Positions 8,346-64,000 of a stretch of DNA of 64,000 bases are shown here, piece by piece (position 1 is the first letter of the stretch; the number at the start of each line of letters is the position of its first letter). Source of the DNA: Brachionus manjavacas (Eukaryota; Rotifera; Eurotatoria; Ploima; Brachionidae). The DNA lies in assembly GCA_019054805.1 (NCBI GenBank), contig JAHQIY010000030.1, positions 62,001 to 126,000 of the forward strand. The letters run 5' to 3'. Below the pieces are notes generated by a model. The model was given only the letters and a program-made list of their open reading frames with translations. It ran no database searches and was not told where the DNA came from. Made by a program: the position numbers and the translations under genes.

Positions 8346-8354
8346 CAACGTGAT

Positions 8355-31913: not shown

Positions 31914-31949
31914 TGGAGTTTGTGTGGATCGTGGTGAAAGAGAGCGCAG

Positions 31950-32358
31950 AGGAGCAAATCGACGGACTGTTTGGTGTAGGACACTTTGAAGATTACGACT
32001 TTACCGTTTGTCTTCCTAGACTCCAATTTGTTTACGAGCTACACAGTGGCTTCCAGCGCTTCGAAACTGTTCCCCATGGTTATCTTGTTCGAAGTAAGCT
32101 GCATGATGAGGTACTGATCGTTCAAACCATTAATGAATCTTCCTTTTACCATGCCATCCACATTGGACTCTGGAGCATCCGTCTTGAATACGCTCTTTGC
32201 TTATTTCCACAAACTTTTAAAAAAATCTCTCACATCTTCTCTGGGAATCTGCACTCGTGTGTAGAACATGCCTTTTGCATCAACGTTCACTGGTTCGGTC
32301 TTTCCAAAAGTCCTATTCATGTGCTTGAACAAATCTGACATACCCATCGGTGCCATCG
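31950..32358 (-). pseudogene. gag-like retroelement fragment
   Basis: Read on the minus strand from an ATG at 32358: MSDLFKHMNRTFGKTEPVNV, VQIPREDVRDFFKSLWK, then a stop (TAA at about 32200, TTA in the 36.4 kb copy), then FKTDAPESNVDGMVKGRFIN and SFEALEATV, then a stop. The 'FFKSLWKLAKSVF...GRFINGLND' pattern resembles the capsid region of LTR-retrotransposon Gag. No pol follows on this strand. The plus-strand 141-codon ORF over it is an antisense shadow. Confidence 0.5.
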
Positions 32359-33330: not shown

Positions 33331-33571
33331 TATTAGATTTAAATTCAGTATGCATTTTTCTAACGATTGGCAAATTTAAAATTTGTCGATTTAATTTATC
33401 AGAAAATACTATTTTTACAGAAAAACGAATTATATCTAAATTGTTGTGTGGTAATTTTTTAATTCTTAAATACCCATTATCACTTTTATAGACACTTTTA
33501 TTATTTGGAAAACAACTGCTAAAAATTTCGAAGCTAAAAACAATTCGAATAAAATTTTTTGATTTATTCAA
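32905..33571 (-). pseudogene. GT92 glycosyltransferase fragment, copy 1
   Basis: Minus strand. 33571-33293 gives an N-terminal part (CFPNNKSVYKSDNGYLRIKK and following) that parallels FPNSKIKFY..YGYLRIN of the 39 kb copy. After about 160 bp of AT-rich insert, 33135-32905 holds the start of the catalytic domain: CSRLNDYSNDYALDF, then GIDKIVFYNGSF and LNCLPNLDLNS in the proper frames. The DxD block and the rest are missing. The second piece lies inside the inverted-repeat arm, so it is duplicated at 35500-35745. Confidence 0.75.
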
Positions 33572-33734
33572 TAATTTTTTCTAAATAAATAAGTAGTTTT
33601 AATTAATTATTTTTTAAATATTAATGGAATATTTTTGAGGAGAGTTTTGAGGTAAATGATGGAGCCCTGTGCAACACAAGGAGCGAACAAGTGTGGTGCA
33701 ACGTCAAGGTCAATGAATATTAATACTAGTTGGT

Positions 33735-35210
33735 TGCGTCTATAGGTCCCCGTATGCAGATTGCCAGCTCAATCTTGAAATTAATTAGTCAATTGATTTT
33801 GCGACCTACCTGTGCAGTTCGGCCTCGTCCAAAAGTCTTCTCGTGGCCGATGACTTCAACTTTCCCGACATCAAATGGAACCATGAAGGCGGTTTCTGCA
33901 CAAACAAAGGTCGCCCCTCTAGTCTTGAATTCCTCAACACCATGAGTAAAAACTTCCTGACCCAGCACGTCCTCGATCCCACGTTTAAATACAATATCCT
34001 GGATCTCGTTGTCACAAATGATCCGGCTAGAGTCTTTCGAATAGCTCACGGCCCACCTCTGGGTTCTACTGATAAGGACTGTCTGCATGCAACTCTCACC
34101 TGGAGCTACGAATTACGGTCCCAACTATCCTCCCAACCTACCTCCCAACCTACAGTCAATACGTAAGTTTGAAGAATCGATTGTCCGGGCATGTAAGAGT
34201 CAGCCCAAACTGCTCTTCAATTACATAAATAGCCAGAAGCAATGTAAGGATACCATCAAAGGCTTATTGGATAAGGAAGGTGCCTTTTGCACAGATGGAG
34301 GTACGATAGCTAATCTCCTCAACGCTCATTTCGGCGGTGTTTTCATCCCTCGCCTGTCTATTCACGATCCGTCAGTCCAAAGCTTTGCCTCGCCCCAGCG
34401 CGAGGTTAATGTTGTTTGCTTCTCACCTGCAAATGTACGTAAATACATCATGCGCCTTAATCCCAGGAAATCGCCAGGCATGGACGGTATCCACCCATAT
34501 GTCGTCAAATGTTGCCCCGACGCCTTTTCGGAGGTCTTCAGCGCTATCTTCACCAGTTCGTACACCAGTGGCAGAATTCCAGACGCTTGGAGACTCGCCC
34601 AGGTCAGCCCTATCTTTAAGAAAGGTAGTAGGAGTGCACCTGGTAACTATAGACCTATCCCCTTGACGTCAATACCCTGCAAGTTGATGGATTGTATGGT
34701 AAGAGACGTCATGATGGATCACCTCTATAGCAACAAAACGATCGTTTCGGAGCAACACGGTTTGTCCTGAGGAAGTCAGTAGTCACTAATTTACTGGAGA
34801 CGGTGGACCGCATAAGCGATGGCATCGATAGGGTATTCCACGTTCTAGTGGTCTTTCTCGACTTTGCTAAGGCCTTCGACAGAGTATGCCACGCGTCATT
34901 AAGAGCCAAATAGGTTGCCTGCGTGTTCTGCCCAGGCATTGTCGATTGGGTCAGCGACTTCTTGTCAAGGAGGCAGCAGCGGGTAGTGATGGGTCGGCAC
35001 ATTGCTGACTGGATTGATGTGTCAAGTGGGGTCCCTCAAGGTCCGACCAGGCCTCCACCAAATGTCTATCACGGGCAAACACATTCACCAACAGAATAGT
35101 CAACGAGTGGAACGCCTTGCCAGTTACAGTGACAGACGCCGACTCCGTCAACTAGTTCAAGAATGGATACGATGTATTCCGGACTAGTCAACAATCTTGA
35201 AGTTGAACAT
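33735..35210 (+). mobile_element. CR1/L2-like LINE, internally deleted
   Basis: The loop of the 1.15-kb inverted repeat. It begins in the endonuclease domain (VGCVYRSPYA, then LVADDFNFPDIKWN at about 33840), continues through the endonuclease-RT linker (SIRKFEESIVRACKSQPKLL) and the RT (NPRKSPGMDGIHPYVVK, WRLAQVSPIFKKGSRS, NYRPIPLTS), and after a one-base shift at 34765 VVFLDFAKAFDRVCHA (catalytic Asp, about 34860). It then jumps from SGVPQGP (about 35030) to the C-terminal end (RIVNEWNALPVTVTDADSVN, about 35095-35150), so the FADD box is deleted. GC content is much higher than its surroundings. Confidence 0.9.
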
Positions 35211-35499
35211 TTTTTATAAAATTTTTCTCTTACAGCTTTTTCTATCGAGAATCTTAACTCTTATTTGACCTAAAAATTTTAAACAGGATATTTTATTTAT
35301 TTTTCAGTACTTTCTATGTGTTATGTGCAAGGAGCTGCCATAGGTGACCTCCTAGTAGGTCATCTCCGCAAGCTAGTCTTGCTGTAGCTTAATTATATTA
35401 TTATTATTATTAATATTACCATGGAAATGAGACTTTTTAAAAGTCTAAAATTAATAAATAAAAGTCTAATTTCCATGGTAACCCAATACTGATTTTAAA

Positions 35500-35745
35500 T
35501 CTAGAAAGAATACGATCTTATGCAGTAGATTAAATGATTATAGCAATGATTATGCTCTTGATTTTGTATGGTGGATTCTAATAAATGTGAGAATGGGAAT
35601 CGATAAAATTGTTTTCTATAATGGTTCATTTGAGTCTGGTAAAACATTCGAAAATTTGTTTCGAAAATATAAAAAAATTGAGATCTATCAATTAAACTGT
35701 TTGCCCAATTTAGATTTGAATTCCACAAATTTAGTTATCTGTTAA
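35500..35745 (+). pseudogene. GT92 fragment in right arm
   Basis: Same content as 33135-32905 (CSRLNDYSNDYALDF, FESGKTFENLFRKYKK, LNCLPNLDLNSTNLV). It ends at 35745, where the sequence departs from the longer 36.5 kb copy. Confidence 0.75.
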
Positions 35746-36276
35746 TGTTTGCTATTTAAAATCTTAAAAACATTAGATTAAATAACTGGAAATTTCTTCA
35801 AATTTTTCTTATGGTTTTCAAATTTTTAACTCTTCGAAAGAGTTTAATATCAAATCTGTTAAAAACGGAAAGTAAAAAATTAAAAAGAGTCTTTCAGAAG
35901 TTAAAAAAGCTAGACCAATCTAATCCAGAAGATTTTCGGTTTTTTAGCGAAAAAGCCAACATTATAAAATAAAATTTGAGAGAGATGGTTTAAAAAATAA
36001 ATTTTTATTAGAACAGGCAGATTTAAAATAATCTAATTTTTAATCCTTATCTTGATGAAATAATTAGGATAAAAATGAAATGTACATTAAATACACGGTC
36101 TTCAAACCAGTCTAGTTTAATCGAAGAACAGATTTCGAAACCTGGTGGAAACGTTTCGAATTATATACTAGTTCTACTAAGGTTTCGTCTGCAGATTTAC
36201 GTAATACATTACTTGTTTTTCTTGATTACTTGTTTACATTACTTTTCTACATTACTTGTTTGACTATTGAACTCCG

Positions 36277-36457
36277 ATGGCACCGATGGGTATGTCAGAT
36301 TTGTTCAAGCACATGAATAGGACTTTTGGAAAGACCGAACCAGTGAACGTTGATGCAAAAGGCATGTTCTACACACGAGTGCAGATTCCCAGAGAAGATG
36401 TGAGAGATTTTTTTAAAAGTTTGTGGAAATTAGCAAAGAGCGTATTCAAGACGGATG
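36277..36457 (+). pseudogene. gag-like fragment in right arm
   Basis: ATG at 36277; 60 codons (MSDLFKHMNRTFGKTEPVNV, REDVRDFFKSLWKLAKSVFK) before the arm ends. It is the sister of 32358-32178 but without its stop codon. Confidence 0.5.
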
Positions 36458-36537
36458 TAGACTTTTTAAAAGTCTAAAATTAATAAATAAAAGTCTAATT
36501 TCCATGGTAACCCAATACTGATTTTAAATCTAGAAAG

Positions 36538-37221
36538 AATACGATCTAATGCAGTAGATTATATGATTATAGCAATGTTTATGCACTTGATTTTGAATGG
36601 TGGATTCTAATAAATGTGAGAATGGGAATCCATAGGATTGTTTTCTATAATGGTTCATTTGAGTCTGGTAAAACATTCGAAAATTTGTTTCGAAAATATA
36701 AAAAAAAAATTGAGATCTATCAATTAAACTGTTTGCCCAATTTAGATTTGAATTCCACAAATTTAGTATCTGTTAATTTTAAGCAAATATATTCGTCTCT
36801 CGATCATCGATTTCATTATGAAATATTTTCATACAATGATTGCTTTCAAAGATACAGAAATGATTATAAGAATATTTTGGTGGCTGATATGGATGAAGTT
36901 ATTATACCAAGAAATAAAGATTCATTTTTAAAGGAAAATCAGAGTTTTGACATAAAATCAACTGGAGCAAGGGGAGAAAATGCGTTTCCTTTATATTTAA
37001 AAGACTTAAAAAAAAAATTAAATTTACCGAATTTTTCGTCAATATATTTTAAAAATGGCTTTTATATTGATGATGGCTATTTATCAAGTATTTTTGAAAG
37101 TCTAAAGAATTTAATCGATAAAAACAACATATTTAATAAAATAATTTTAAAATTAGATTTTACTGGAGAAAAAATGTCAAATGATTTAAGCAAATGTCCG
37201 CATACGAAATGTCACCAGTGA
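36538..37221 (+). pseudogene. GT92 glycosyltransferase, partial copy
   Basis: Glycosyltransferase family 92 (DUF23) enzymes transfer galactose or related sugars in the Golgi. This copy starts inside the domain (CSRLYDYSNVYALDFEWW, about 36552) and is open from 36616: GIHRIVFYNGSFESGKTF, LNCLPNLD, HYEIFSYNDCFQRYRNDY and the metal-binding VADMDEVIIP (Asp codons near 36885 and 36891), then an insert-like helical region, ending in a C-terminal SKCPHTKCHQ. The N-terminal membrane anchor and the final third are missing. The DxD motif is intact, but the fragment cannot fold into a whole enzyme. Confidence 0.8.
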
Positions 37222-46844: not shown

Positions 46845-47030
46845 CTTGTTTTTAAGTCACAGTTTTAAGTCTAAGTCACAAAAATTTAAGTCAAAGTCAT
46901 GACTTAAATTTTTTTTTTTTTTTTTTAAGTCAAAGTAATGACTTAACTTAAATTTTTTTTTTTTTTAAGTCAAAGTCATGACTTAACTTAAATTTTTTTT
47001 TTTTTTTAGGTCAAAGTCATGACTTAACTG
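46845..47030 (+). repeat. hAT-like end with AAGTCA array
   Basis: It starts ACAGACTTGTTTTTAAGTCAC, similar to the right terminus at 28012, followed by three palindromic AAGTCATGACTT units with T runs. The array abuts the second 440-bp repeat directly. Probably a truncated non-autonomous hAT copy. Confidence 0.65.
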
Positions 47031-47474
47031 GCATTGTGAATTTTGGTACAAAAAACAAATACAAAATATAAAAAATGTCAAAACTCAGGTTCTGAAGGAG
47101 CAAAACATGTTCTGTAAATTGTAGCAACTGAAACGTTTTTTGTACCACCAATATACTGATTCTGCAAAACTCTGCAATACATCTGCAAAATTCAGAATTT
47201 TGTGATTTTTAGTACAAAATCAGAAACAAAATATAAAATACACCATAGATTTTTTTGGACAAGCAAAAAAATATTCTGTAGAATGTAGCAACTGCTACAT
47301 CCTCTGTACCACCACTTAATGTAAAAATAATAATATAAAATTCAAAATCTTACAAAGCATTTAAACCACTGTTTGGGCAACCCAAAGTATAGAATTTTAA
47401 ACTTTTGTTATGTTTGAAATGTGTTTTGAAAATATTTTTTTATTTAAAAAAAATTGAAAACAAATATTTTGAAA
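47030..47474 (+). repeat. 440-bp dispersed repeat, copy 2
   Basis: Collinear with 5637-6083. It ends at 'caaatattttgaaaa', immediately before the SETD1 fragment, exactly as copy 1 ends before the kinase fragment. Confidence 0.85.
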
Positions 47475-47478
47475 ATTA

Positions 47479-48866
47479 ATGCTCCAAATGCTCCAACACG
47501 CAAAAAAAAAGCGCAACTACCGCACCGACCCGCTCGACCTGGCCGTGCCCAGCTTCAAAGTCGACCAGTACAGGGTGGGCCCGGTGCCCTACAAAGAAGT
47601 CACATTCGCCAACCTAAACGACAACATCGACCACAAATTTCAGCACGAAATGTGCGCCAAATACGGCGACATAGCCGAATGCCGCATCTACTACCATCCG
47701 AAGAGCCGCAAGCACCTCGACATGGCCAAGAGCATAATCGCGAGCGAGAAGTCGGAGCAACGAGCGCGCCAAAATGGTCGAGCAGCTGTGCATCCCGGCG
47801 CCGCCAGCGCCTGTGCCGCGCGCCCCCCCCCCGTCCCCACCGGCGCGCGCCACCACTCTCGAGTCGCGCATCGCCCCCATCTTCAACATCAGCCTGCAGC
47901 CGAGCGCGCCGCCGAGTGTGTAGGCCGTGGCCGCGGCCCCCGACCCTTACGCCGCCTCTACCCCCGCCACCGCCGCTCGACAAGGCCGAGCTCAAGCAAA
48001 AGTCTGTCGCCGGCATCGTACACGAACTAAAGCAAGTTATACGCACGGACCTGTGCCGCAAGTACTTCGAGCACACCGTTTTTCTGTTGATCGACGAGTG
48101 GTTCGGCAGCGTGAGACTGTACGTGCCAGCCAACCTGCGGCCGAGCACTCCGCCGTCTCCGCGCCTCGGCGACCGCAACAACAACCAGATGCACAAGCGC
48201 TACGAGCGACACCGACGACGCTCGCCGTTCAGATCCCGCCGTCGACGCTCGCACTCTCGCTCGCCCAGGTCACGCTGTCGATGATCACGTGATCGACACT
48301 ACCGGCCCAGGCATCGGCGACGCCGTTCGCCGCACAGACGACACGACAGAGTGTCGCCGCGGGCTCGCTCAAGCTCGTGGGACTCGCCGCCCGCTCTCAC
48401 CAAGCGATTCAAATACACTACCACTCACTCTCTTGTACAAAGTGTAAATAATTCCAAACTAGACGACGACCGCGACTACTACCACAATTCAGACAAATCC
48501 CCGTGCAGTTCAGCTCAAGCAAATGTCTGTCAGCTCAAGCTCAAGCGCACAACAGGCCCTCGCACGCTTTTTCCGAATCAGACAAAATAATTGTCACCGC
48601 TGTTGTTTAGAACGAGTGTGTGCGCCGCACTAGTGTTGAGTGTGCGATTGGGCATAGTTGGACTGTTAAACAAGAAGAAGCCAATTTGGAAGAGAATTAC
48701 AATGTTTTAAGAGATGTGAGAGCAAAGTGCAGATCAAAATGAAGAGAATATTTCGACTATTGATTCCATTATTGATTTGGTCATTAAGCAAACCCAGGAC
48801 AAAAGAGACATGGTTGATTTGGTTGAAAAAAAGAGTGCATAGTTTAAATTCAGCGCAATGATCAAG
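47479..48866 (+). pseudogene. SETD1: SETD1 (Set1/COMPASS) N-terminal block, broken
   Basis: SETD1 is the catalytic subunit of the COMPASS histone H3K4 methyltransferase. The block begins in the region before the RRM (LAVPSFKVDQYRVGPVPYKE) and covers the RRM: VTFANLNDNIDHKFQ, MCAKYGDIAECRIYYHP, KHLDMAKSI. Frame shifts near 47760 lead to a Pro/Ala-rich linker (IAPIFNISLQPSAPP) with a stop. A third frame from about 47955 has IVHELKQVIRTDLCRKYFEH and a long Arg/Ser tract (48190-48290). Weak coding, ending in IDLVIKQTQDKRDMVDLV, continues to about 48866 before a GT. GC content is around 60 percent, against about 25 percent around it. At least three frame breaks make it a pseudogene. Confidence 0.85.
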
Positions 48867-51800
48867 GTATTTTTTTTATTTGTTTATTTATTTTTGATGA
48901 AAAATTGTTCCCTTTTTTATCAAATAAAACGGTTTTCTGACATTAAAATTAGGCTTAATTTGTGCATCTTCATTTTTTACTTTATTCTTTTCTTTTTTTT
49001 TTAATTTTGAATATTTTTAGTTTAAAATTCTGTCTATGAGGCTTTAATAATAATAAAAATAAATAATATAATTCGATTCTGATATGTGTCCAATGCTTCC
49101 TTAATTTTCAATTTTAGCTATCGATTTAAAGAATTTAATCAGTGAAATTTTTCATGCTTTAATATAAAAATATTTGTTCAATCTTCCCCTTATTACATTT
49201 TAAAAGTGCACAATTCTGTAATTGTAAACAATATAAATATTATAGAAATTTAACTAAAAGAGATAATTTAGTTCTGTAAAATGCTTAATTATAAGCAAAT
49301 TTGCTTAGTGCAGTAAAATAAGTCTACGCCTTAAAAAGGTATTCCAATCAAGAGTGCAAATACATTGCAGAGTTTTTGCAGAAATATTTTTTTGGATTAA
49401 GCAAAGTTACTTAACCATTAAGCATTTTAAAATTTTAAAATTTCAAAATATAGATTTTTTAGTTATAATTTTCTTTTCATTCAATTTTATAAGTTAACAA
49501 TTCCGTAATTTTAAATTTTGTTTAATTTCTCATTAAATTACCAGTTCCAAAATTTTACAATTCTAGTTAAACATTTTCCTCATTCAATTTTGTAATTTCA
49601 AAATTTTATTTAATTTACCCCCTATAAAAATTTACATATAAAAAATTTAAGTATTTTAGTTTAACTTTTTTGAATAATTTTTACATCTAACAGAACAAAA
49701 ATAATTGTTTTTGAGCTTGAATAAGCAATTTATTCCATCTGATTGAATTTTCTTTGATATTAATGCATTTGCTGCTGATAAAAATTTTTTCCTTCTTGCT
49801 GAAGTAATTGTATTGCTGAAGAAAATAAACTTGAACTAAGTAGGCAGGAAATTGTGAAGATTCAACTTCAGGATGAAATGTAATTTTTTTTTGAAATCTT
49901 TTTTCCTTAATAATTTTTTTTTTAGAAAGATGATGGAGAAAAAAATAGTTGTTGACTAAATAATTGACAATTATATTTTTTTTAGTTTTTCTTTGTTATC
50001 GAATTTTAAAAGTTAACGATTTTAAAAATTTTATTTAATACCCCCCTTATAAAAATTTACAGCTAAAATAAACTATATTGGTTAACATTCTTCCTCAATT
50101 TCAATTTTATAAGGTTATAATTCTGTAATTTTAATTTTGTTTAATTTCTTATTAAATTCTCTTATTAAATTTTACAATTCCAAAATTAAACTATTTTACT
50201 TTTATTTTTCTTCTCGTTTAATTTTGTAATTAAACAATTCCGTAATTTTAAAATTTTGTTTGAATTTCTTATTAAATTATTAAATCTCTTATTGAATTCC
50301 CTTTTAAAATTTTACAAATCCAAAATTTAAAAATTCCGTAATTTTAAAATTATAGTTTAACATTTTTCCTCATTCAATTTTATAAGGTGACAATTCTTTA
50401 ATTTTAAATTTTATTATTATTTTACAATTTAATAATTTTTAAAGTTTTAGTTAAACTTCAATTTTGCAATTTTTTGATCAATGATATTAATCAATAATAA
50501 CAAATTTTTTATTAAAAAATTTAATTAACATTGTTTAAAATCCGATTCTAAGTAATTTAGTACTAAACCAATTTAATACTTTGAATTTAGTCCTAAATTT
50601 TTATGTAAGAAACTAATACTAAATGTTTATTTCCAAATCAAATATGTAAATTAAATATGCATCTTTTAAAATTTTCAGAGTTTAGAAGAAATTGAATGAT
50701 ATCATATGATATGATGTCACAAATTAGTTTCCGGCAGTGTAAAAGCTATTTTAAATAATTAATTGTCTTTTTGAAAACATTGACATGTATATTAGATTTA
50801 TTGTAACGTTACTTAAGTCACAATTTTGATGTTTGATCTATTGATCAATTTTTTCTACTTTTTTATTTTTTGTTTATTTTAACAACTTTTTTAATTTAAA
50901 TAAAATATTAACAAAAAATTATAGTATTTAACTCGAATAGTAGTTCAATCACTTTGTATTAAACTCGCTTAGAATTATCATATTACAAACAGCCTAAAAT
51001 ACCCTTATTATTTAATAGATGATTAGCTTAGAATTTTTTTTTTTAATATTTTCTTATGTCTAGTTACTAGAAGTGTCAAAATATTTAAAAAATTAAATTT
51101 AACACAGTCAATTTAAAGAAATTAATAATAAATACATAAATTATAAACTTGATATTTCAGCATTGAATACTTAGATTAAATTAAGTCAGCTATTAAATTC
51201 AAGTTTAAATTTATAATATTTGAAAAATTTTTGTTTTACGAAAATAATAATAATTTTAAAGCTGATAAAAAATAAATTGAAAATTAAAAAAAAAAATAGC
51301 TGTTCAAAATATATGAGAATTTAGATATTTAAAACGAGGAAAAATTTTTTGTTGGTGCTTCTATAGCTAACGTTTTTTTTCGAAGGTTTAAAAGTCTACT
51401 AATTTTTTTTTTCTATTCATTCAAAAAGAAAAATAAGAATCTAATCTTAATTGTCCGGCTTTCAATCAAAATTTTTTTTAGAAAAAAAATATATTATTAA
51501 CATTCCTGTTTTTATCTTATAAGAAATTACTGTACTGCTATGATAAACTGTTTTTATAAAATTTTACGTACTTTTTCGAAATTTTCGTGATTTTACGTAA
51601 ATTTACGTTAATTAAAATTGCTAAAGTAAAAAAAGTAAATTTCAGTAAATATAAAAAGGGCCAAAAAAACTGTAAAAATTATCTATTAATTTATAATGCA
51701 TTGAATTTACATAAAAATATAATAATTTAATAAGGGTTTTTTGGAGCGGCGGTGAAGGTTGGAGCAAAAAATTAAAGCAAAGCAAAATATTCAATAAATT

Positions 51801-52239
51801 TTTAAAAAATTTAAAATTTAAAAAAGTTTTAGCCTTAAAATCAAAAAAACATTTAGAACTGTTTTTGTCAATATTATAACTACACTTCTGAATATAAAAA
51901 TTATTTTTTCTTTAGCTTTTGTTTGAGTTTAGCAAAATTTTTTAAAAAATGTTTAAGTATTTTTTTTAGATAATTATCAATAATTTAAATAAAACTGGGA
52001 TTTAATATAACCAAATATACTTTTCTACAGTTTTTGCTCAAGACCGAATCGCCGCAAATTTAAATGTTTCAGGTTACGCTCCATAGTTTCATGAAAAAAC
52101 TTGCTCCCAACTTTTTACCAAGGTTTGCTTTTTGGACATCACATTTAGGGTGAAATTTATAAATTGGGGTCTAATTTGATGCCTAAAATTAAATTGGGAA
52201 TAATTAAGAATTAATTTTTCCAATCTCCAAAGCCTAGTT
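48867..52239. other. 3.4 kb AT-rich interval between SETD1 blocks
   Basis: No clear gene. At 49814-49880 (+) a short piece, IAEENKLELSRQEIVKIQLQ then DEM before GT, resembles the 63-nt mini-exons at 63.6-64 kb and may be a stray exon. Diverged short repeats such as 'ttcaattttataaggt' with 'attttgtttaatttc' occur at 49480-50400. The interval is either a very large intron, unlike the short introns elsewhere, or inserted DNA. Confidence 0.45.
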
Positions 52240-52274
52240 TGCCTACTTTTTTGTTCTTAAGGCTGATGACGATG

Positions 52275-53368
52275 CAAAGATGGTGAAAAAGCGCACCAAA
52301 AAGTCCAAAAAAAAAGTCGATGCAGAAAAGAGCGGCTGTGAGCCAGTGACAAAAAAGTCCTCTCCATTGCTGATATCCACTTTGCTTGAGAGACAAGACA
52401 ACCTCAAAAAACAGCACTATTTGCTGATGAAACAGAAAGACGAGTCTCAGGGAGTTCGCATAGTGGATGCCAAGATGCAGATGCAAATATGGGAAGAGCA
52501 CATGCCTTGGCTAAAAGAAGAGAAGCCAAAGAGCTTGTCGCGTGAGCTGGTCAATTTACTGCCGCCGTCGGTCAAGCCGGAGAAAAAGAAGGCGGCCGCG
52601 GCGCCCGAAAAAGTGGCCGAGAGTTCGCGAGGCGCACACGGGCCCACGATGACCAAATAATGAGGAGCTTCTTGACGCTGGGCCTGGACGCCGAGGACTT
52701 GCTGTACTTGAAGCGCGTGTTTGACCAAATGATCGACCAGGAGAACTCGACAGATAAAGCTGTTGACGGCGAGTTTTGCGACATTGTCAGAAGGCTCAAG
52801 TGCACCGAGCGGGCCTACGCGTACCGGGACGACGCGCTGGTCGAGTGGGCGCGCGTCCGGCCCTATAGAAAGTTGACTCGCGACGAAAAATAAAGTTCAG
52901 GGAGCAATTCAAGCAGAGCTATTTGAGTTTGTCGCTACAGATGAACGTGGGCTCGTCGTCGCTGGCGCACAACTCGTCCAGCGGGTCTAACATTGATGCT
53001 TTGGGCCAGGAGGTGTCGTCTATGTCGTCGGCCCGCGAGGCCCGCTCTCTCCAACGCAAACTAATGGCCTGCAACGAAGTACACGACTTTTTCAAGTATA
53101 GCCAGCTGAAGCTGAGGAAAAAGTCGCTGAAATTCTGCAAGTCGGACATCCACGACTGGGGATTGTTCGCCTTGGAGACAATTGCGCCCTAGGAGTTTGT
53201 CATCGAGTATGTGGGCGAGACCATACGGTAACGGTCGCCGATCATAGGGAAAAGTCCTATAACGACCAGGGCATTGGCAGTAGCTGCATGTTTCGCATTG
53301 ATCAAGACACGATTGTTGACGCCACTAAATGCGGCAATTTGTCCCGGTTTATCAATCATTCCTGTGAT
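52275..53368 (+). pseudogene. SETD1: SETD1 C-terminal block with SET domain, broken
   Basis: It starts with a Lys-rich region (52280-52660), then the N-SET part (GLDAEDLLYLKRVFDQMIDQ), then the SET domain: [30 protein letters not shown], a stop (TAG at about 53190), [11 protein letters not shown], a second stop, [20 protein letters not shown] and [13 protein letters not shown] up to a GTAAGT donor at 53369. The following exon (Cys-rich post-SET) is not seen. Frame changes occur near 52660, 52890 and 53235. The substrate- and cofactor-binding motifs (EYVGE, FINHSC) are well kept, so the source gene was functional recently. Confidence 0.88.
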
Positions 53369-54119
53369 GTAAGTAGACATTTTTTTACTCTTTATTTTAG
53401 TAGTAATACCAAGTAACAGGTTTATTTATAAACTAACACAGGTTTATTTTAAAATTTTTTGAGCAGAATTTATTTTTAGTTTAGCTTTGGCTTTGTTAAG
53501 TTAGGATAATTAAAAAAAAATTTTTCCGAAATTTTTTATTGCTAGTATAATTAATCAGAAAATTTTTTTGTATTATTTTCTTAATGTTTTTGATAGAATC
53601 CCATCCTAAATTTTAAATCCAAAAGACTGGCTTGCTTTGAATACTTGAGTTAAATTAAAGGTTAAAATATTTTCATTTAAAAAAAATGCAATTTTTAATT
53701 AATAATAATAACATAATAATAAATAATATAGAAGACTAATGGAGCTGTCTGATTTTAACGTAATCCATCATAATGATATACTTATTTGATTGAGAATAAA
53801 ATATTTAGTTTCAGTAATTAAGTTTTAAAAAATAATTATTTAGTTTTGAACGAAATACAAGATTGTTTGTTTCACGTTTTAAACTTAAAGAAAAATTTGT
53901 AGTCCGAAATCCATATTTTTGTTAACTATTCAAATTTTGTATTGGTATTTTTGTGTAAAAATTCACAACTATACAAATTGGTCATAGAATTCTTCGAGTT
54001 GTTGCTCTGAAGCCAGGTTTTAGATTTAGAGAGTAATCAGCATTTGTTGATGAGCAGTTTATTTGTTAATATTCAACAATGGGACGATATACGAGAAGAA
54101 TATAAAGGTAAAACAATTT
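53369..54119. other. AT-rich interval
   Basis: No gene and no trace of the last SET exon. From 53980 the sequence becomes slightly richer ('gaagccaggttttagattta') before the hairpin array begins. Confidence 0.4.
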
Positions 54120-55330
54120 AATCAGGCTTTTGAATAAGACATGGTAAAAACAATTTCATAACTTGTATGAGAGAAGTGAAATTGGTTTTCCATATTTTAT
54201 TCAAAAGCCTGATTTCAGTTTTGGGCAAATTTTAGCATAAAAACCCAAAAATTAAAATCAGGCCTTTGAGTAATATTTGGAAAAACAATTTCATAACTTG
54301 TATGAGAGAAGTGAAATTGGTTTTCCATATCTAATTCAAGAGCCTGATTTCAGTCTTGAGCTTAATTAAGTAATTAAAAGGAAACAAAAATCGGGCTTTT
54401 GATTAGGAAATGGGAGAATAATTTCTTAACTTGTATGAGAGAGGTGAAATTGGTTTTCCATATTTTTTTCAAAAGCCTGATTTCAGTTTTGGACAAATTT
54501 TAGCATAAAAACCCAAAATTAAAATCAGGCCTTTGAGTAATATTTGGAAAAACAATTTCATAACTTGTATGAGAGAAGTGAAATTGGTTTTCCATATCTA
54601 ATTCAAAAGCCTGATTTCAGTCTTGAGCTTAATTAAGTAATTAAAAGGAAACAAAAATCGGGCTTTTGATTAGGAAATGGGAGAATAATTTCTTTACTTG
54701 TATGAGAGAGGTGAAATTGGTTTTCCATATTTTTTTCAAAAGCCTGATTTCAGTTTTGGACAAATTTTAGCATAAAAACCCAAAATTAAAATCAGGCCTT
54801 TGAGTAATATTTGGAAAAACAATTTCATAACTTGTATGAGAGAAGTGAAATTGGTTTTCCATATCTAATTCAAAAGCCTGATTTCAGTCTTGAGCTTAAT
54901 TAAGTAACTAAAAGGAAACAAAAATCAGGCTTTTGATTAGGAAATGGGAGAACAATTTCATAACTTGTATGAGAGAAGTGAAATTGGTTTTCCATATTTT
55001 ATTCAAAAGCCTGATTTCAGTTTTGGGCAAATAATAGCATAAAAACCCAAAATTAAAATCAGGCCTTTGAGTAAGATTTGGAAAAACAATTTCATAACTT
55101 GTATGAGAGAAGTGAAATTGGTTTACCATATCTAATTCAAAAGCCTGATTTCAGTCTTGAGCTTAATTAAGTAACTAAAAGGAAACAAGAATCAGTCTTT
55201 TGAATTAGACATGGTAAAAACGATTTTATTACTTATTTGACATAAGTGAAAATGATTTTCCATTTTTTATTCACATGCTTGATTTCAGTCTTGAGCAAAT
55301 TTAAGTAAATAAAACTTAAAAAATGTCAGA
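54120..55330 (+). repeat. eight-unit hairpin tandem array
   Basis: Eight clear units of 133-135 bp and one degenerate unit. In each, a 5' arm (ATCAGGCTTTTGAATAAGAC, then aaaacaatttca) is complementary to a 3' arm (tgaaattggtttt, then TTCAAAAGCCTGATT), giving about 38 paired bases around an ATG-AGAG loop (acttgtatgagaga). Two spacer types alternate strictly (AGCATAAAAACCCAAAA and AATTAAGTAAYTAAAAGGAA), so the true period is a dimer of about 267 bp. Related arrays: 9666-10110 (three units) and 29190-29345 (one unit, inverted). Confidence 0.9.
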
Positions 55331-55399
55331 ATTTTTATGTAAAATATAAAAAAAATAATTTTTTTTATTTTTAATCTTTGATTACATTTTAAAATATTT

Positions 55400-56695
55400 T
55401 TTTTTAATTTAGGTTTGTCATTGCCATTTTTCGACATTCAAATCAAATTTCAACTTCGATGGAACTGCTTTTTCAGGTAGTATAAATTATTGGATGTATT
55501 TCTTATGAAATTCGTTTTCTTAACCTCTAGACTGATGGCTGATATTTTTCTTTTAAAGTCTCTAATTATCTGACTTCTTTAAATTTTATAAAATTAATAA
55601 TAAAATTCATTTTTTAATAATTTAAAATTTAAGAAGTAAGAAATTAAAAGAAAGCTTAATTTAATCTTAAGCTTAATCCTTTTTTATAAATAGCAGATAA
55701 ATATCATAGCCATTAGAGGGAGAATGAATTCTATAGCTCTGTAGGTAGGACATTTTCGGGCCGTTCGCGTGGGACCGTACGTAAATATTCTTGCACATTA
55801 ATAAATAAATTAGGGCTGCCCACCCAGTAAGATTTCCGACAATGACATGGAGGCTTAACGACCCGAAGTGATCATTACCTTGAGGTTGACTTAACGACTC
55901 ATCTCTCATTGTATGCATGTGGCTCGGGAGTCCAAGGAGGCGCCTAAGTCGAGAACTTCATGTTCTAGCTGACTTTTGATCGAGTAGGCGAATCTGGAAG
56001 GCGAACTGAGATCATGCAAGGTTTCGAGAACAATATGATCTTTAGAGTTTTTAACCGGTCGTAAAAAATCTTTAATTCTTCATTTATTTTAAAATTTTTT
56101 TAATTCGGATGGACACTTAATCGGGTAAATGTGTAGAGGGATTCGATTTTTATCAATTTCTTTTACCGCTTGTTTCACAATAACTCGGTCTATTGAGAAA
56201 TTACTTACTAAAGAGTTGATAGGAGGAAGTCTTGTGCTCGAAGTTAACTCGGTTTGTGTCTGTCCTAGGTTTTTTCAAATCAACATACGAAAAAATGATA
56301 TGATGCAATAGACGCAAGCAAACAATTTGTCTTTCAACACGAATGGTTATCAAAACAGATGATTTTTTTGATTTTTTTTATTAATTGTTTTTGTTAAATC
56401 TTTAATTTTTTGTTTTTTTTTTAATCTTTAATTATTATAAATTAAATTTAGATTGATAAATAAATAATCACAATATCAAATCTTTTTTTTGTATTAAATC
56501 AGTTGCTAATTATCGAAGAAAATTTATGAAAAATATCATAGAATGCATAGAATTATGCTGTGTCAATTATCACTCAAAGAATTATCTGCTTTTCACCGTG
56601 AATACAAAAATAAACTTTTTAATTTATATTTTTGAATAACTTGTTAATAAATGATTTTTAATAAATTTTTTTATTTCTTTTTTACAGTAATAACA
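55400..56695 (+). repeat. array tail, full copy
   Basis: About 1.3 kb after the array. It starts near 'ggaactgctttttcagg' (55460), has 'ctctagactgatggctgat' (55527), the GC-richer block at 55755-56040 and ends near 'aacttgttaataaatgattt' (56639-56660). It matches the reverse complement of 28085-29060, and its first part matches 10240-10480. ORFs inside (55673-55918, 56129-56311) are not conserved between copies and are not called. Confidence 0.85.
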
Positions 56696-56775
56696 AACTG
56701 TTTTAAATTTATTTTTACCACCTCTTTTATAAATCGTTTTGATTTTTTTACTTTAGATAATATACAAAAATTAAC

Positions 56776-57933
56776 ATGGTTAACCCAGCGAAACTCATTA
56801 AAAGGGATATCAGAGCCCTGCTCCGAAAAGCTTTTCATGAAATCAACAAAATTCATGGGGTTGGCGCATTAAACGCTCGAAAATTCAAAGAATTAATGAA
56901 AGGTATCCTATTTTTCATTATTTTAATTTTATTAATTTTTAATTTAATTAGAAAAAGGTTTAAAATTTGACAAATGTGACGAAGAAATAGCCAACTTATC
57001 GAAAGAAAAAGGCTTGGTCAATTTTTGGGTGGAGTACGATGGTAAAGAAACTTTTAAAATGAGAGAATATGACGACTCGGTTTCACATGTCCTCAAATTC
57101 AAAAGTCATGAACTTGACTTAGAGGTAAATTTAAAATTACTTTTTCCTTTGGTAATTTTTAATTATTTTTTGTTAAGAGTGAATCTTTGTATTCGGAAAA
57201 TCGAACGTTAAGTACTGTTTGTGATTCGAAAAAGTATTTTTTATCTACTAATTTTATTTATCTTTAAATTATTTTTTAATAGATGTCAAATCGTGATCTG
57301 GATAAGGAACGAATTAAAAACTGTTTCCTTAAATGCAAAAAGCTGATGGGAAATGAGCTTGGCATTGAGAACATTGATGAAATGAACGAATATTGCACTA
57401 GTAAGTTTTACATATAATTAGAAGAATTTTTTTGTAATTTTTTATTTTTATTAATTAAGTCAATAATATTGAACTTCCAGGCTTTCAAATGGATGATTCA
57501 ATATATTCAAGAAATATTGTCGGCTTTGATATCTTTCAAGGCATCTTCACCATAAAACAAAATGATAAAACGGAAGATGAAATGAAATCGATTAGAATTG
57601 CAAATAAAAATGTCAAATCGAGTATCACGATATCAAAACTAAGTGAATTTCAAGGCAAAGATGATAAAGATAAGCAACCCGAGATTATTGTCTCGTCAGA
57701 AGAAATTTCAAAAGAAACGACATCTGAAATAAAAGTAATGCTTTAACAAATTTTAAATATTAATGAACTTTAAATATTTTTAGGAAATTCCCGAATATGT
57801 CCACCCAGACGATATTTATTTCGACTTTGATGAAATTTTGGACACGAGAGTCCGAAAAATAAGCGTCAGGCAAAAATTAAGTGGTCCAAACTCGGCGGAA
57901 TCGATTTCAAACCGTATTATTTATTTTAACTAA
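56776..57933 (+). CDS. five-exon gene, 273 aa, unknown function
   Basis: ATG at 56776 and five exons with GT-AG borders that all keep frame: 56776-56902, 56952-57124, 57283-57400, 57481-57734, 57784-57933 (822 nt). The protein starts with a basic helical part (KLIKRDIRALLRKAFHEINK, IHGVGALNARKF), the latter vaguely like a helix-hairpin-helix. Then come LVNFWVEYDGKETFKMREYD, a Lys/Cys-rich helix, and an acidic C-terminal half with DDIYFDFDEI. A sixth exon to about 58130 (FQNERPERPAKEDSAI) is possible if exon 5 is spliced onward. I recognise no family. It lies between the array tail and the JAMM gene on the same strand, so it is likely an element gene. It has no frame defect. Confidence 0.65.
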
Positions 57934-58795
57934 AAAAAAATTTTGTTTTTAGTTTTATAATTCTTTTTCAATAGTACTTGGGAGAATTTTTCAATGATAA
58001 ATCCTGGCTTTCAAAATGAAAGACCTGAGAGACCAGCAAAAGAAGATAGTGCAATTGTCCATATTTCTGACATGCAAAGTCAGAAAGGAACTTTGAATGA
58101 ATTCAAAAAAAGGCGAAAATACAAATTTTAAATTAATAGATTTTATTTTTAGTTTTATTTTAAAATAAAATATTGATAATGAATCGTCATCTTCTAGAAT
58201 TTTCTTCTTTCGCTTTCACTTTTAACTTATAAGTCTTCAATTGCCTCAATTTTCATTATAAAAGAATTTTTTAATCTTTAATGCTTAAAGCAACCATTAA
58301 TGTGTTGATAAAAATGAAAAAATTCCATTTACAACAAAAAAACTAAGAAATTAGGTATTTTTTATTCAAAAATTTTTAAAATGAAATTTTAAAAATTTTA
58401 AACTAAATTAATCAATTTTTGAATCAACTCTAGAATGAAAGCGTTGTGAGTTATAAAAAATAGATCAGGCAGACCGGAAGAAAAAAATTTGGTTTATTTT
58501 TCTATTATAATTTTTATTACCAATATATAATTAAAAAAATAAAATAATCAATAAATATTTTAAATTGAATCTTGTTCATTTTTTTAAAGAATTTTTAAAG
58601 AAATTATTAACTTTAAAATTTTCAATAAAAAATTCAAAAAGCTCATAAATAGGCTTCTTTTATAATTTTATTTTACTTCTTTTTAATTAGAGTTCCCGCT
58701 TAGAGACGAAATAAATTTTGTTGTTTTTGAATTTAATATATTAAATTATTAATTATTCTACTTTATTTTTAGAAAATTAGAAATTTAAACCGAAA
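57934..58795. other. AT-rich spacer with possible last exon
   Basis: 57975-58130 holds an open piece ending KRRKYKF-stop, possibly a sixth exon of the preceding gene. The rest is AT-rich. 'tcttgttcatttttttaaagaatttttaaagaaatta' at 58569-58605 recurs at 59471-59507, upstream of the next gene, and may be a shared promoter element. Confidence 0.45.
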
Positions 58796-59375
58796 ATGTC
58801 CATACATATATCTAATATAATTAATGATCCACAAACAATGCATTTATCCTATGAAATGGGTGGTGTTTTCGAATTAGATACAGGAAATATCACCAATATT
58901 CAGAACGGAAGTCCAGAAACACTGTTACTGGAATCAATTCCAATATTTCCTATATCCGATGAACTAATTTCATGGCATACGCATCCAATTTCGTCGAATA
59001 TCAGGAAAAATAACTATCAAGGACAGTTTGACGAAAATGAAATTAAAATTCATTTTGACGCATTTCCATCGCCAATCGATATTGAAAACTTACTGAAAGC
59101 AGCCTTTCATTATGAAGCTGACACTCAGGAAATTATCTTTTCTGAACAAGGCAACTTTATAATTCAAACATTTATTTTTTCCAATCAACAATTGGATGAA
59201 ATAAAAAAAAGAAATAGAAGAAGATATAAACGATATTTGTGATGTAATGTCGAATATCTCAGTGTCTTCTCATAATTGCGAAAGCATTTCTGTGGAGAAT
59301 ATAGTCGAAAACTATCTAGCAGATTTCGAAAATTCTAACATAAATTTTTTAAAATTAAGCATTTTTTTTAACTAA
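58796..59375 (+). CDS. JAMM/MPN-type isopeptidase
   Basis: ATG at 58796. The first 95 residues contain a complete JAMM metal-binding set: E20 in YEMGGVF, H61 and H63 in SWHTHP, S92 and D95 in FPSPID. This is the signature of MPN+ zinc isopeptidases, which remove ubiquitin or ubiquitin-like modifiers. Length is small (148 codons to 59242). A one-base change in the A run at about 59203 would instead extend the frame to about 59375, giving a Glu/Asp/Asn-rich tail (YLADFENSNINFLKL) that looks more natural than the Arg-rich end. The short domain resembles stand-alone JAB proteins of phages and mobile elements. It lies between two element genes on the same strand. Confidence 0.7.
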
Positions 59376-59574
59376 TAATAACTTTAATAAATTGATTTAA
59401 TAAAAATTTTGTTTATACCCAACCCTGAACAAATTATATTGATAATTCATTTTAAATAAAATATTTCAAAATCTTGTTCATTTTTTTAAAGAATTTTTAA
59501 AGAAATTATTTTCTTTAAAGCAAACTCTTTACATCTGAAAATTAAAAAAAATTTAAATTTTAGTATTTATTAAA

Positions 59575-62030
59575 ATGCATACAGCAAAATTCGATAACAA
59601 AGAAAAACTAAAAAATATAATTGTCAATTATATGAAAGATAGAGGCTTGACTGATTTGAAGGGAGGACACAGAACGTCTAGTTCACATTTCCTAGAAATT
59701 TGTGAAAAATACTTTGAAAAATCAAAAGAATATTTAAAATTGGAAGCCCTTAATTTATATGTAAAATGGAGACCAAACGATAATGGGATTAAAAAATACA
59801 TATTAGAAGAGCTACGTTGCAATGAAAAACTCTCAACAAATTCAGAAAAAAATCCTCAGCATCATGAATTTGTTTTTTCGTATGATGAATGGAAAAATTT
59901 AGAAGAAACAATTACTTCAGCAAGAAGGAAAAAATTTTTATCAGCAGCAAATGCATTAATATCAAAGAAAATTCAATCAGATGGAATAAATTGCTTATTC
60001 AAGCTCAAAAACAATTATTTTTGTTCTGTTAGATGTAATAATTATTCAAAAAATTTTTGGAATGGAACTTTGAAGTGTGTTCGTTGTAGCAAAGAGTTTA
60101 AATCGTTTATAAAGACAGAACCATTTGAAAATTCCAATTGCAAACTGATATTAATTTCAGAGACAAATTTTTGTAAAGAAAAAGTAAATTTTGCAATTTT
60201 ATCAAATAATCTATCGAGAATTGAACGAAAAGCCATTCAAAAAGATATTTATTCTAAAGGTCTTATCAATTTTCAAACCGAAAACGATTTTTTAGAAGAT
60301 GATGATTTTAAAAAACGTGAAATTAGTTATACGTCTCTAAGAAAACTCAAAAGTCAATTCAGACACAGATTTCAGCTAAATAATGATCTTCGAATTGATT
60401 CTGACGCTACAAAACTAGTATTTGATCTTTTGGTACCAAAAACATCAAAGTCCTTAATTGAAGGATATATACAAGAAGTTGTTTCAAATCCATTTGGCGC
60501 GCTTTTGGTATCAGAAAAACAAGCAAAAATGTGGGGTGTTATTCAAGAAAACAACCCAGTTTGGTTTTTTGATGCAACTGGTAAATTAATGCTAAAGCTA
60601 AAGGATCAACAAGAAATTTTATTATATTCTATTGTTTGTCATGATCAGACTTTTAAAAACTTAATCCCTATCGCCGATTTTTTATCAAGTTCAAATGACA
60701 CCATAACAATTTACTGTTTTTTAAAAAAAATTATCGAAAGATTTCATAAATATTCTTTTTTTCGATACCCGAAATTTTTCAATACCGTCTTTTCATGGGC
60801 AAACATTAATGCATCTTTGAGGGCTTTAAATAATCTAGAAATCATGGATTATTTAGAGCTTGCATACGAACTCATAGTAAAAAAAACATGTGGGCCTCTT
60901 TACGAATAAAAACATGTGTCTATATTTGTTCGACTCATTTGCTAAAAAATGTTATTGATGAAACCGAAAAAATTGTTGGTAGTAGTGGAAGTTTACAATC
61001 AAATGGTCATGTAAAAAAAACTTTTATATGTAGCTTTAGCTTACTTCAGAATAGCACATCAATCGAGGAACTTTGCCAAATTTTTGAATGCATTCAAATT
61101 ATTTTCATGACAAAATTCGAAAATGAAATTTTAACCCAAAAAATCCAAAAGCTAGAATTCTTTTTATCCACTAGGAATGCAAAATGGCTAAATAACATAT
61201 GCTATGATAAGAATAAGATGGAAAATGATATCAAGAAACAAATTTTCTTTTTCGAAAATAATGATCAAAATTTATTGCAGGAATCACCTTTTGCCAAATT
61301 TTTTCTCGATCTTTTAAGAGTAAATCAGAAAATTATAGATAATATAAATGAAAACAATGTCTTGATGCTAAAGAACATATTTTATTCACCTAGACTTTTT
61401 GAAATAATAAAAAAGAAGCTTCATTTGGCGCCTTTATGGACAGGTTTAATGATTAATAGCGAATTTCATGGCAAAACTCGTTTTTCAAATAATAACGTTG
61501 AGAGTTGGTTTAAGCATTTGAAAAATAGTGTCTTAAATATAAATAAGCGTGTTCGATCTTGTCGTTTACTATTCCTAAGTGAAATTTCTATGCCTTTGTA
61601 TTTCTATATTAATCATAAGTATAAAGAATTCTATGAAGACATAGCGAATATCAGGCTCGGCACACTTCGAAAGAGAGAAAATTCAGACCATAGAGAAATG
61701 TGGAAATTTAAGAAACCGGCAAAAAATTGTGTTGGTTACCATAATGTTGTTTTCAATATTGACAAGCAAAAAAATGAGAATGATATACCAAAGGAAAACT
61801 TTTTTGTTGACATTTATAGTGAAGGGTCAAAAAAATTGGAAAATTCAGCAAATGAAATTGAAATAATCGATACAGAAGTTCCAATGGATATTGACAAAAA
61901 ACATGAAAATAATTTCGGAAATTTTATCTATTTTAAAATTGCAAATTTTCTAATCCGAAAAAAGGCAATTGACGATATTTTAACAAATAAATGGCTTACT
62001 GATAATGTAAATATTTCGAAAATTATTTAG
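59575..62030 (+). pseudogene. large DDE transposase (NOF/MULE-like), frameshifted
   Basis: ATG at 59575. N-terminal 230 residues: a helical region, then a zinc-binding module (CSVRCNN, CVRCSKEF). The RNase H-fold core has WFFDATGKLMLKL (first Asp, residue 333), the second block at residue 405 where TDFSWA is expected but reads TVFSWA, ICSTHLLKNVIDE, and NNNVESWFKHLKNSVL (Glu codon at 61500). A frame change at about 60885 in an A run splits it into 444 and 380 codons; the remnant at 16.8 kb has one more base there and reads through. 'DATG ... TDFSWA ... NNxxESWF' is a known transposase-like family, probably related to MULE/NOF. This copy has lost one catalytic Asp and its frame. Confidence 0.85.
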
Positions 62031-62062
62031 ATAAATTTATTTATTTCTAAATTAAGGAATTA

Positions 62063-62798
62063 ATGGCTTTTGCAAAATGCGTTGTTAGTAACTCTAAAAA
62101 GAAAATTTTAATTCTCGATTGTTTTCATTCAACTCAGATTTTTAATGAAGGAAAATTAAATAGTGAAATTGGACTTGGAAATTATTTTGAAGTAGGTTTC
62201 TAATTGATAAGTAAAAGCTCTTGTTAAAAAATTATTCAAGTTTAAAAATTTTGATGTAATTTTCGGTTTTATTAATGAAAACTTAAATCATTGGTCAATG
62301 ATGTTTATTGAATTAAACGGAAGTAAATTTTACTATGTTGATCCATTAGGAGAAAAAATAGAAAATCAGAAAAAATCTTTTGAAAACTGGAAGTAAGTAT
62401 AAGTCAGTTTTTCATCTAAAATGTATCTGTATATATTTTTTTAAAGAAGATTTGCTTCTACCGTTGAATCACTGAATAATAGAAATTGGAAACAAGCAAA
62501 ATGTGATCATTCACTTCAAAATGATCCTAATAATTGTGGGGTATTTGTGAGCTTCTTTCTAAAATGTCTTGAAGAGGGAAAACCGCTCTTTTTCAATACG
62601 TTGAATAGTTCACTTCAAAAATTGCGTTCTGAAATGATTCGTACCTTCAGAAAAAATTCTAGTGAAAATTTCTGTTCCAAATGTGGTTCAGAAATCAAAA
62701 CATTTAAAAATATTGTGAAAGGTGATTGCTTTCATAAATTTCACCAATCATGTATTGAAAATTATGAATTAAATCAGTCATGTCCAATTTGTTTTTAA
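62063..62798 (+). CDS. ULP1 (C48) protease fused to RING-H2 finger, 210 aa
   Basis: Three exons with GT-AG introns that keep frame: 62063-62191, 62241-62392, 62447-62798. ULP1-family cysteine protease of the SUMO/NEDD8-specific type: catalytic His in NHWSMMFIEL, Asp in YYVDPLGEK, and Cys in NNCGVFVSFFLKCLEEGKP, with the preceding Gln/Asn region LQNDP. The last 45 residues form a complete RING-H2 pattern: CSKC, then GDC-FH-KFH-QSC and CPIC (C-x2-C-x14-C-x-H-x2-H-x2-C-x10-C-x2-C). All catalytic and zinc ligands are present and the frame is intact, so this is the best-preserved gene of the element. It follows the transposase by 32 bp on the same strand. Confidence 0.85.
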
Positions 62799-63444: not shown

Positions 63445-63588
63445 TTTGTTTTTTAAAATTTATGTTTTTAAAATTTTAAACAATTTTATCTTAAGAATAA
63501 ATCATTTGAGCTAGTTGAGAATATTTCAAATGGAATTTCCAATTTTTTGAATATTTAATAATCAAAAAAATTTTCTTTAATTCTAAAG

Positions 63589-63998
63589 GCAAAGTCTGAA
63601 CGAAAAACTTAACGGTATTGCTGAAGAAAATAAAAAATTAAATGCGCAAAAGTACGATCGAAAAATTTGTCTTAAATTAAATTAATATTTCTTTTTAAAG
63701 TGAAAAATTGTCTAAAATATTCAACAGCAATAAAGTAAAGAAAAAAGATCTAGAAGTTGAACTGTAAGATTTAAAAATGATACAAATGAATTTATATAGA
63801 ATTTTTACTTATAATATAAGTAAAAGCCTAAAGAGAAATTTAAATGCTTTTTCCGAAGAAAAAGAAAAATCTACTGAAGAAAAGTAAGTGATACAGAAAA
63901 ATTAATTAAAATATTAATTTAAATTTTTTGAAGAGAAAATATGGCCGAAAAACTCAGCAAGTGTGACGCAGCTAAAGCTCATCTAGAGGATGAAGTGT
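63589..63998 (+). CDS. coiled-coil gene made of 63-nt mini-exons (runs off window)
   Basis: Four exons of exactly 63 nt (63589-63651, 63714-63776 approx., 63821-63883 approx., 63934-63996 approx.), each bordered by AG and GT and each starting and ending in the same phase (one base, twenty codons, two bases). Each therefore codes 21 residues, three heptads: SLNEKLNGIAEENKKLNAQ, EKLSKIFNSNKVKKKDLEVE, SLKRNLNAFSEEKEKSTEE, NMAEKLSKCDAAKAHLEDE. Introns are 45-65 bp. The exons resemble each other, so the gene grew by exon duplication. The last GT is at the window edge, and more exons probably follow. Confidence 0.65.
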
Positions 63999-64000
63999 AA

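Follow-up and report, generated by a model that had tools for sequence, protein, structure and literature searches.

Mutator-like elements (MULEs) that carry fragments of host genes between terminal inverted repeats (TIRs) are known from rice and other plants as Pack-MULEs. Those first reported were no longer than 7 kb (PMC6431247), and in the available part of a 2021 survey of 100 animal reference genomes no Pack-MULE was identified; for animal Pack-TIRs, the same source proposes gap filling and replication fork switching (PMC8277862). A ULP1 (C48) protease domain has been described in a plant MULE (PMC13317346). Among animals, Phantom MULEs have target site duplications (TSDs) of 8-10 bp, TIRs of 18-613 bp and, in aphids, a minisatellite after the transposase (PMC6446971), while a 2026 survey gives lengths of up to 10 kb for arthropod MULEs (PMC13359780). 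The accessible text of a paper on Brachionus repeats mentions neither MULE nor Mutator (PMC6555955). Here we analyzed 64,000 bp of Brachionus manjavacas DNA, bases 62001-126000 of contig JAHQIY010000030.1 (C30), and refer to this whole stretch as the window. Two of its loci, at 47.0-62.8 kb and 5.6-11.06 kb, were said in an earlier note, made from the sequence alone, to share one order of modules: a 440-bp repeat, host-gene fragments, a hairpin array, a conserved tail and protease or transposase genes. We conclude, with a probability of roughly 0.92, that these loci and their relatives elsewhere in the genome form a giant MULE-type family of cut-and-paste DNA transposons.

Ends, module order and genes of the element

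The 440-bp repeat, which the earlier note had correctly singled out as a module, is one of the two TIRs of a large MULE-type DNA transposon. The repeats of the 47.0-kb and 5.6-kb loci are 91% identical, and the one at 47030 has matches at 40 or more places (40 scored of 303 first-look candidates), many of them inverted pairs. Its own partner lies beyond the window, at C30:127689-128120. The copy therefore does not end at 62798, as had been claimed; it spans C30:109030-128120 (19,091 bp) and ends at window-equivalent 66120, about 2.1 kb past the window. By alignment the TIR is 448 bp long here and about 485 bp at other ends, and both the long TIRs and the TSDs of about 9 bp at two-ended copies are as in MULEs. 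The copy has the following parts, in window positions.

47021 to 47029, no strand: left TSD copy, 9 bp (GACTTAACT); the right copy follows window-equivalent 66120
47030 to 47477, + strand: left TIR, 448 bp, beginning GGCATTGTGAATTTTG, containing sub-repeats at ~165-bp spacing; truncated inside the TIR, shorter than at the right end
47489 to 53650, + strand: captured SETD1 genomic DNA with introns, colinear with the host gene on C12 (host-stretch bases 2767-8265), interrupted at 49596-51674
49663 to 49953, - strand: the element's own sequence, inverted within the cargo, as two pieces side by side from the transposase gene and the 3' part, by sequence match
53853 to 53968, + strand: dispersed repeat of 116 bp that has a TIR-like tip and derives from a SETD1 intron, 97% identical to C12:2116293-2116408
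53966 to 54120, + strand: phospholipase C-beta exon fragment with splice donor, 81% identical to C17:850.9 kb, ending at the first hairpin
54120 to 55315, + strand: hairpin array of 9 repeated units (~134 bp), every one of which contains a hairpin of ~97 nt, by repeat search and folding
55330 to 56600, + strand: conserved tail, by sequence match
58781 to 59242, + strand: accessory open reading frame (ORF) with a JAMM-like HTHP...SPID motif by eye and no family match
59557 to 62030, + strand: putative transposase in two overlapping ORFs with a broken frame; the second catalytic D has been lost
62211 to 62798, + strand: ULP1 (C48) protease (Peptidase_C48, E 8.2e-6) with H, D and C residues present, then a RING finger
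63550 to 64000, + strand: start of a repeat unit of 461-bp period, 1 copy here and about 14 in the C29 copy, running on past the window

This copy is flanked on both sides by a perfect 9-bp TSD. We compared the nine bases to the left and right of ten two-ended copies (this one, those on C2, C29, C6, C35, C26, C13 and C31, and two on C3), using the first right end where C26 and C3:203408 had more than one in tandem. All nine bases agreed in 5 of the 10 copies and eight of nine in 3, and C13 had a perfect 8-bp match. One of the 8/9 cases, C3:2222286-2234091, sits in low-complexity DNA and is weak if taken alone. As a control, 90 mismatched pairings of left and right flanks gave at best 6/9. A satellite of ~40 bp (AAGTCATGACTTAA core) occupies window positions 46885-47029, 20812-21149 and 27832-27979, and the 19-kb element is inserted in one such array.

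The modules of both loci lie where the earlier note had placed them, and each recurs elsewhere in the genome. The tails of the two loci are 94% identical over a 106-bp stretch, and the ULP1-RING regions match in two stretches at 87% and 86%. The note had asked for a genome-wide check, and this bore it out: wherever array, tail and genes occurred together, the array (or a single hairpin), tail, transposase, ULP1 and RING had the same order and orientation (10/10 places; at least ten exist, among the matches listed). These places are the 19-kb copy itself, C2, C29, two units on C6, C33, C30:0.29 Mb, C17, C3:2.22 Mb and C2:9.32 Mb.

Near-identical copies were found at different genomic places. 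The transposase region is present in 10 copies, including this one, at 97-100% identity over at least 2.7 kb, and in older copies besides. The two-ended, SETD1-bearing copies that were read whole measure 19,091 bp (own), 20,909 bp (C2), 28,475 bp (C29), 28,565 bp (C6) and 10,668 bp (C35, in which the gene region is missing), with 9, 10, 43, 29 and 17 hairpin units, respectively. There are 47 units in C33 and 19 in C30:0.29 Mb, both of which had one TIR missing from the stretches read. The numbers of hairpin units and of 461-bp units (1 to about 14 per element) account for part of the variation in length. Among the matches listed, C35, C13 and C49 have arrays without element genes, which counts against strict linkage of the modules. 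Short derivatives also occur: six stretches have the left TIR together with part of a TIR in inverted orientation that stops close to base 970, and a further derivative is 1.85 kb long. At one end, the copies at C2:9449663 and C30:286666 have the same outer flanking sequence; one of these loci probably arose by duplication of the other and not by a separate insertion.

MULE transposases have the motif order D, D, CxxH, E. The motifs are kept in most transposase relatives that cover them. Of the 7 transposase units read, 5 contain all four strings; the exact CxxH string searched was absent from C33, and the window's copy lacks the second D. One relative carries the UniRef label "MULE transposase domain-containing", and two of the 18 listed are named Brachionus calyciflorus. 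By eye, a ULP1-like start can be seen at the end of the transposase frame. A JAMM/JAB protease, suggested for the accessory ORF by its motif, was not confirmed by Pfam (no hit above cut-off), by homologues (none at E ≤ 0.01), by the PDB (an unspecific hit to a surface protein, E 1.4e-4) or by the predicted model (pLDDT 34). No FLYWCH or SWIM finger was found in the element ORFs scanned. Two other ORFs in the window, at 819-2566 and 14591-15472, have weak FLYWCH matches and a SWIM finger, as in other MULEs, and possibly represent a different MULE family.

Host-gene cargo in two lineages

In lineage A, to which the 47-kb copy belongs, the exons and introns of the SETD1 cargo are colinear with the host gene. 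Blocks from the two long host frames are about 92-97% identical to the 47-kb copy, and other blocks about 88-95%. The parent locus matches a solved structure of a Set1-type methyltransferase, and the host gene has a whole SET domain, split over C12:2113239 and C12:2122293, of which the captured piece lacks the last part (the last exon). The 3' half of the SETD1 piece is present at 10 element loci in addition to the host gene. While SETD1 had been recognized correctly as cargo at 47 kb, the piece of phospholipase C-beta exon between it and the array had been missed; its parent locus on C17 has a PDB match at E 1e-16.

The lineage A cargo starts inside the shortened left TIR (448 versus about 485 bp) and stops at a hairpin. 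Past the point that corresponds to host base 8265, the element carries the 116-bp repeat of the same SETD1 intron, so the captured stretch extended to host base 10909, and a deletion came later or at the same time. The edge of the SETD1 cargo falls within a few bases of the tip of this repeat's TIR-like end. The GC content of cargo and gene part was 0.42 and 0.26 in the window's copy and 0.38 and 0.25 in the C3 copy. SETD1 frames were broken in the copies read. Differences from the host at codon positions 1/2/3 numbered 19/14/20 in the N-terminal exon, a pattern that appears near neutral, and 7/8/15 in the SET exon. Judged by its sequence, the cargo looks like mostly non-coding passenger DNA.

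The 5.6-kb locus belongs to a second lineage, B, with the following features.

5637 to 6085, + strand: left TIR, by sequence match
6159 to 7469, + strand: captured MAP4K3 DNA with introns, parent at C1:4.953 Mb
7519 to 7931, + strand: captured fragment of an axonemal dynein heavy chain gene (DNAH6-like), parent at C16:1.893 Mb
7928 to 8358, + strand: captured fragment of a locus at C5:6.725 Mb (C9 and C3 have similar ones), no gene name assigned
8379 to 9103, + strand: captured BIRC6 fragment, from C13:0.18 Mb
9084 to 9605, + strand: reverse-transcriptase fragment beside the array, by ORF domain scan
9659 to 10111, + strand: hairpin array, about 3 units, by repeat match
10154 to 10505, + strand: tail, by sequence match
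10509 to 11059, + strand: ULP1-RING remnant, transposase missing

This copy is truncated, with no right TIR seen after it. A two-TIR copy at C3:2222286-2234091 (11,806 bp) carries MAP4K3, dynein heavy chain, the C5 locus and BIRC6 in the same order as window positions 5637-11059, and it is about 78-93% identical to the 47-kb copy outside the cargo. The two window loci, described in the earlier note as unrelated, are thus two lineages of one family. The gene names given there were right, since solved structures of MAP4K3, axonemal dynein heavy chain 6 and BIRC6, like that for SETD1, are matched by stretches of their parent loci. Partial members of lineage B include C3:203408 (dynein, BIRC6 and tail; no hairpin match), C9:3813966 (a MAP4K3 piece), C24 (MAP4K3 and dynein) and others. 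In a third lineage, at C2:9.32 Mb, an array of hairpins with about 66-75% similarity to the window's is followed by a tail at 80% and gene matches at 83-93%. Hairpins number one in C3:2222286, about three in the window's lineage B copy and 9 to 47 in lineage A.

Host-gene DNA within the TIRs keeps its introns, and the two lineages hold different host genes in the same position, from the left TIR to the hairpin array. The parent loci lie on contigs other than C30 (C12, C17, C1, C16, C5 and C13). No TIR match was found in the four parent stretches fetched; a single TIR-like tip, belonging to a dispersed repeat, lies in the SETD1 intron. As in Pack-MULEs, then, host fragments lie within MULE TIRs and their parents lie elsewhere, not flanked by TIRs.

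Further remnants, at 28.1-32.0 kb and 15.9-17.4 kb of the window, are on the minus strand; they may both derive from a single old copy that later insertions divided.

28628 to 31989, - strand: third, partial copy with BIRC6 cargo, one hairpin and tail, by sequence match
15922 to 17383, - strand: decayed transposase remnant, by sequence match

Pieces of the left half of the window (5637-32000) recur inverted at C30:143.9-168.0 kb, on the far side of the 19-kb element, 2,027 bp of them at 100% and others at 93-98%. This is either a large inverted duplication or an assembly effect. Among the other repeats of the window, 23829-25803 encodes a BED finger and a hAT-like transposase in two long frames (hAT label by eye), and at 32176-36767 the arms of inverted repeats (787 and 372 bp) are 100% identical and stand 2.0-2.7 kb apart, a fold-back structure of very recent origin. 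Positions 26361-27460 hold 73 copies of a 15-bp repeat, open in several frames.

Proposed capture beside the hairpins and alternative explanations

We propose that the transposase would excise and insert TIR-flanked DNA by cut-and-paste, and that, when the DNA is broken or gapped in the interval from the left TIR to the hairpins, repair would copy from other loci with template switching. In this way the slot would come to hold both unlinked gene pieces and stretches of the element's own DNA, and later transposition would multiply each filled element. Break repair at this place is suggested because the lineage A cargo begins inside a shortened left TIR and ends at a hairpin. The two inverted self-derived pieces in the cargo are as template switching would leave them. 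More tentatively, the slot may be a fixed one: the hairpins beside the left TIR would be a built-in fragile site that breaks in replication, and template-switch repair would make the element a self-loading gene collector. Consistent with this, three lineages (that of the 47-kb copy, C3:2.22 Mb and C2:9.32 Mb) have hairpins at a constant position ahead of the tail, and these are adjoined by two different cargoes. Hairpins as the cause of the breaks are our hypothesis.

The hairpin folds strongly, with z-scores of -7.7 (first unit), -6.0 and -4.4 for three units. RNAalifold gave no structure for 19 hairpins. Stem covariation was scored on a structure that we specified, against 500 shuffles: 83.6% of cells pair versus 81.7% in shuffles (3/500 reach this level), and double-sided changes affect 18 cells versus 12.3 (8/500). 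Two adjacent stem pairs flipped from A-U to U-A between lineages; only 4 stem pairs changed on both sides, below the shuffle mean of 5.2. These figures lend weak support to selection on the hairpin stem. Every array match listed lay in a locus with other element parts (17 of 227 first-look candidates scored). The middle of the tail (window 55680-56410) recurs as fragments at several loci without element genes and may be a repeat of its own.

Several findings weigh against a giant MULE family or against its cargo as mere passenger DNA. Frames change between the first D and the E in 7/7 transposase units read, and because of this and the lost second D of the window's copy we call the transposase putative as to activity. 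Pfam at E ≤ 0.01 was matched by 0/16 transposase relatives, and fold comparison was a near tie between ISCth4 (11.5) and the hAT transposase Hermes (10.6). The flanks of the C6 copy disagree, leaving no TSD, and this copy is internally duplicated. The third-position excess in the SET exon may reflect synonymous change in the host or some constraint, whether acting on the host or on the element. Some modules also stand apart, which the earlier note had named as the sign of independent insertions: the TIR-only short derivatives, 12 tail matches of at least 150 bp (72-97%) with no element-gene match nearby, a phospholipase piece with a hairpin at C4:2.11 Mb that has no TIR, gene or other element part among the matches listed, and the rearranged remnant at C30:161-168 kb, which has no array and carries cargo and tail on one strand and a ULP1-RING piece on the other. 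These cases, together with a repeat-rich contig and other transposons and retroelements nearby, are what would be expected if independent repeats had nested by chance and their shared order were accidental. As signs of independence they are weak, and we consider that explanation very improbable: the order and orientation are constant at 10/10 places on C2 (two), C3, C6 (two units), C17, C29, C30 (two) and C33, and matching 9-bp TSDs lie just outside the TIRs of two-ended copies. Least probable of all is a Helitron or other rolling-circle element as the carrier. Gene fragments and a hairpin near the 3' end are known in Helitrons, according to the available part of PMC4778049, but TIRs, TSDs and a putative DDE-type transposase are present here, and no Rep or helicase domain was found in the 20 ORFs scanned. 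The earlier note had likened the uptake of host exons by a large mobile element to both Pack-MULEs and Helitrons; TIRs, 9-bp TSDs and unlinked parents with introns uphold the former likeness, and the TIRs and TSDs rule out the latter.

Two further alternatives concern the cargo within a MULE-type family. Capture might have used a resident TIR-like end near the gene, by composite or end-bypass transposition, with the 116-bp SETD1-intron repeat as the far end, and not gap repair. The stop of the SETD1 cargo at the repeat's tip favors this, as does the SETD1-intron copy being the best match outside elements (97% versus at most 85% for the next, among the matches listed, 40 of 166 candidates scored). 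We think it unlikely, since it leaves unexplained the four unlinked fragments of lineage B, the self-derived inverted pieces and the phospholipase exon beyond the tip. It is more doubtful still that the cargo is functional, in that the element would express host fragments or make small RNAs against host genes such as the chromatin gene SETD1. The named host fragments do lie in sense orientation to the element genes, and the hairpin arrays, with a first unit at z -7.7, could give double-stranded RNA. For SETD1, however, the frames are broken, the captured piece stops short of the last SET exon and the first-exon codon pattern is near neutral, and we rejected functional SETD1 cargo as the primary explanation.

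Comparison with known systems

Our literature search, which covered few subscription journals, found no such element in work on ULP1 MULEs, animal MULEs, rotifer transposons or Pack-MULE hairpins. We rejected the nematode Mutator/foldback family Tm1 as a match; it has 9-bp TSDs, according to the part of the source available (PMC3169594), but its repeats lie in the TIRs. Phantom MULEs are alike in described features (TSD length, TIR length and, in aphids, a minisatellite). Unlike in these elements, the hairpin array here stands before the transposase and a FLYWCH/SWIM finger is absent from the element ORFs scanned. Animal Pack-TIRs likewise have host DNA between the ends of a TIR transposon, but they are mostly hAT and Tc1/mariner, whereas this family is MULE-type with its own transposase-like gene.

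KI-MULE/Kaonashi and other ULP1-bearing plant MULEs resemble the family in having a ULP1 (C48) protease domain. The Arabidopsis ULP1 MULEs are non-TIR elements with ULP1 in one of three genes, whereas here ULP1 occurs together with TIRs and a RING finger follows the protease. The family shows an animal MULE carrying ULP1 and RING (SUMO/ubiquitin-type) domains.

The element works like a Pack-MULE, with TIR-flanked fragments of several unlinked host genes that keep introns, GC-richer cargo and multiple copies. It is not a classical one, because the same TIR pair also holds the transposase and ULP1-RING genes, whereas Pack-MULEs are non-autonomous and lack a transposase gene; the gene-keeping copies read whole measure 11.8-28.6 kb. 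The family combines two lineages of cargo with sharp breakpoints and with parents in the same genome, which makes gene pick-up by TIR transposons directly testable in an animal, and the element illustrates the uptake and spread of gene fragments by mobile DNA there. Pack-MULEs, ULP1 in plant MULEs and animal Pack-TIRs are already known; what is new is an animal MULE of up to 28.6 kb with transposase, ULP1-RING and captured genes, and a capture slot between TIR and hairpins.

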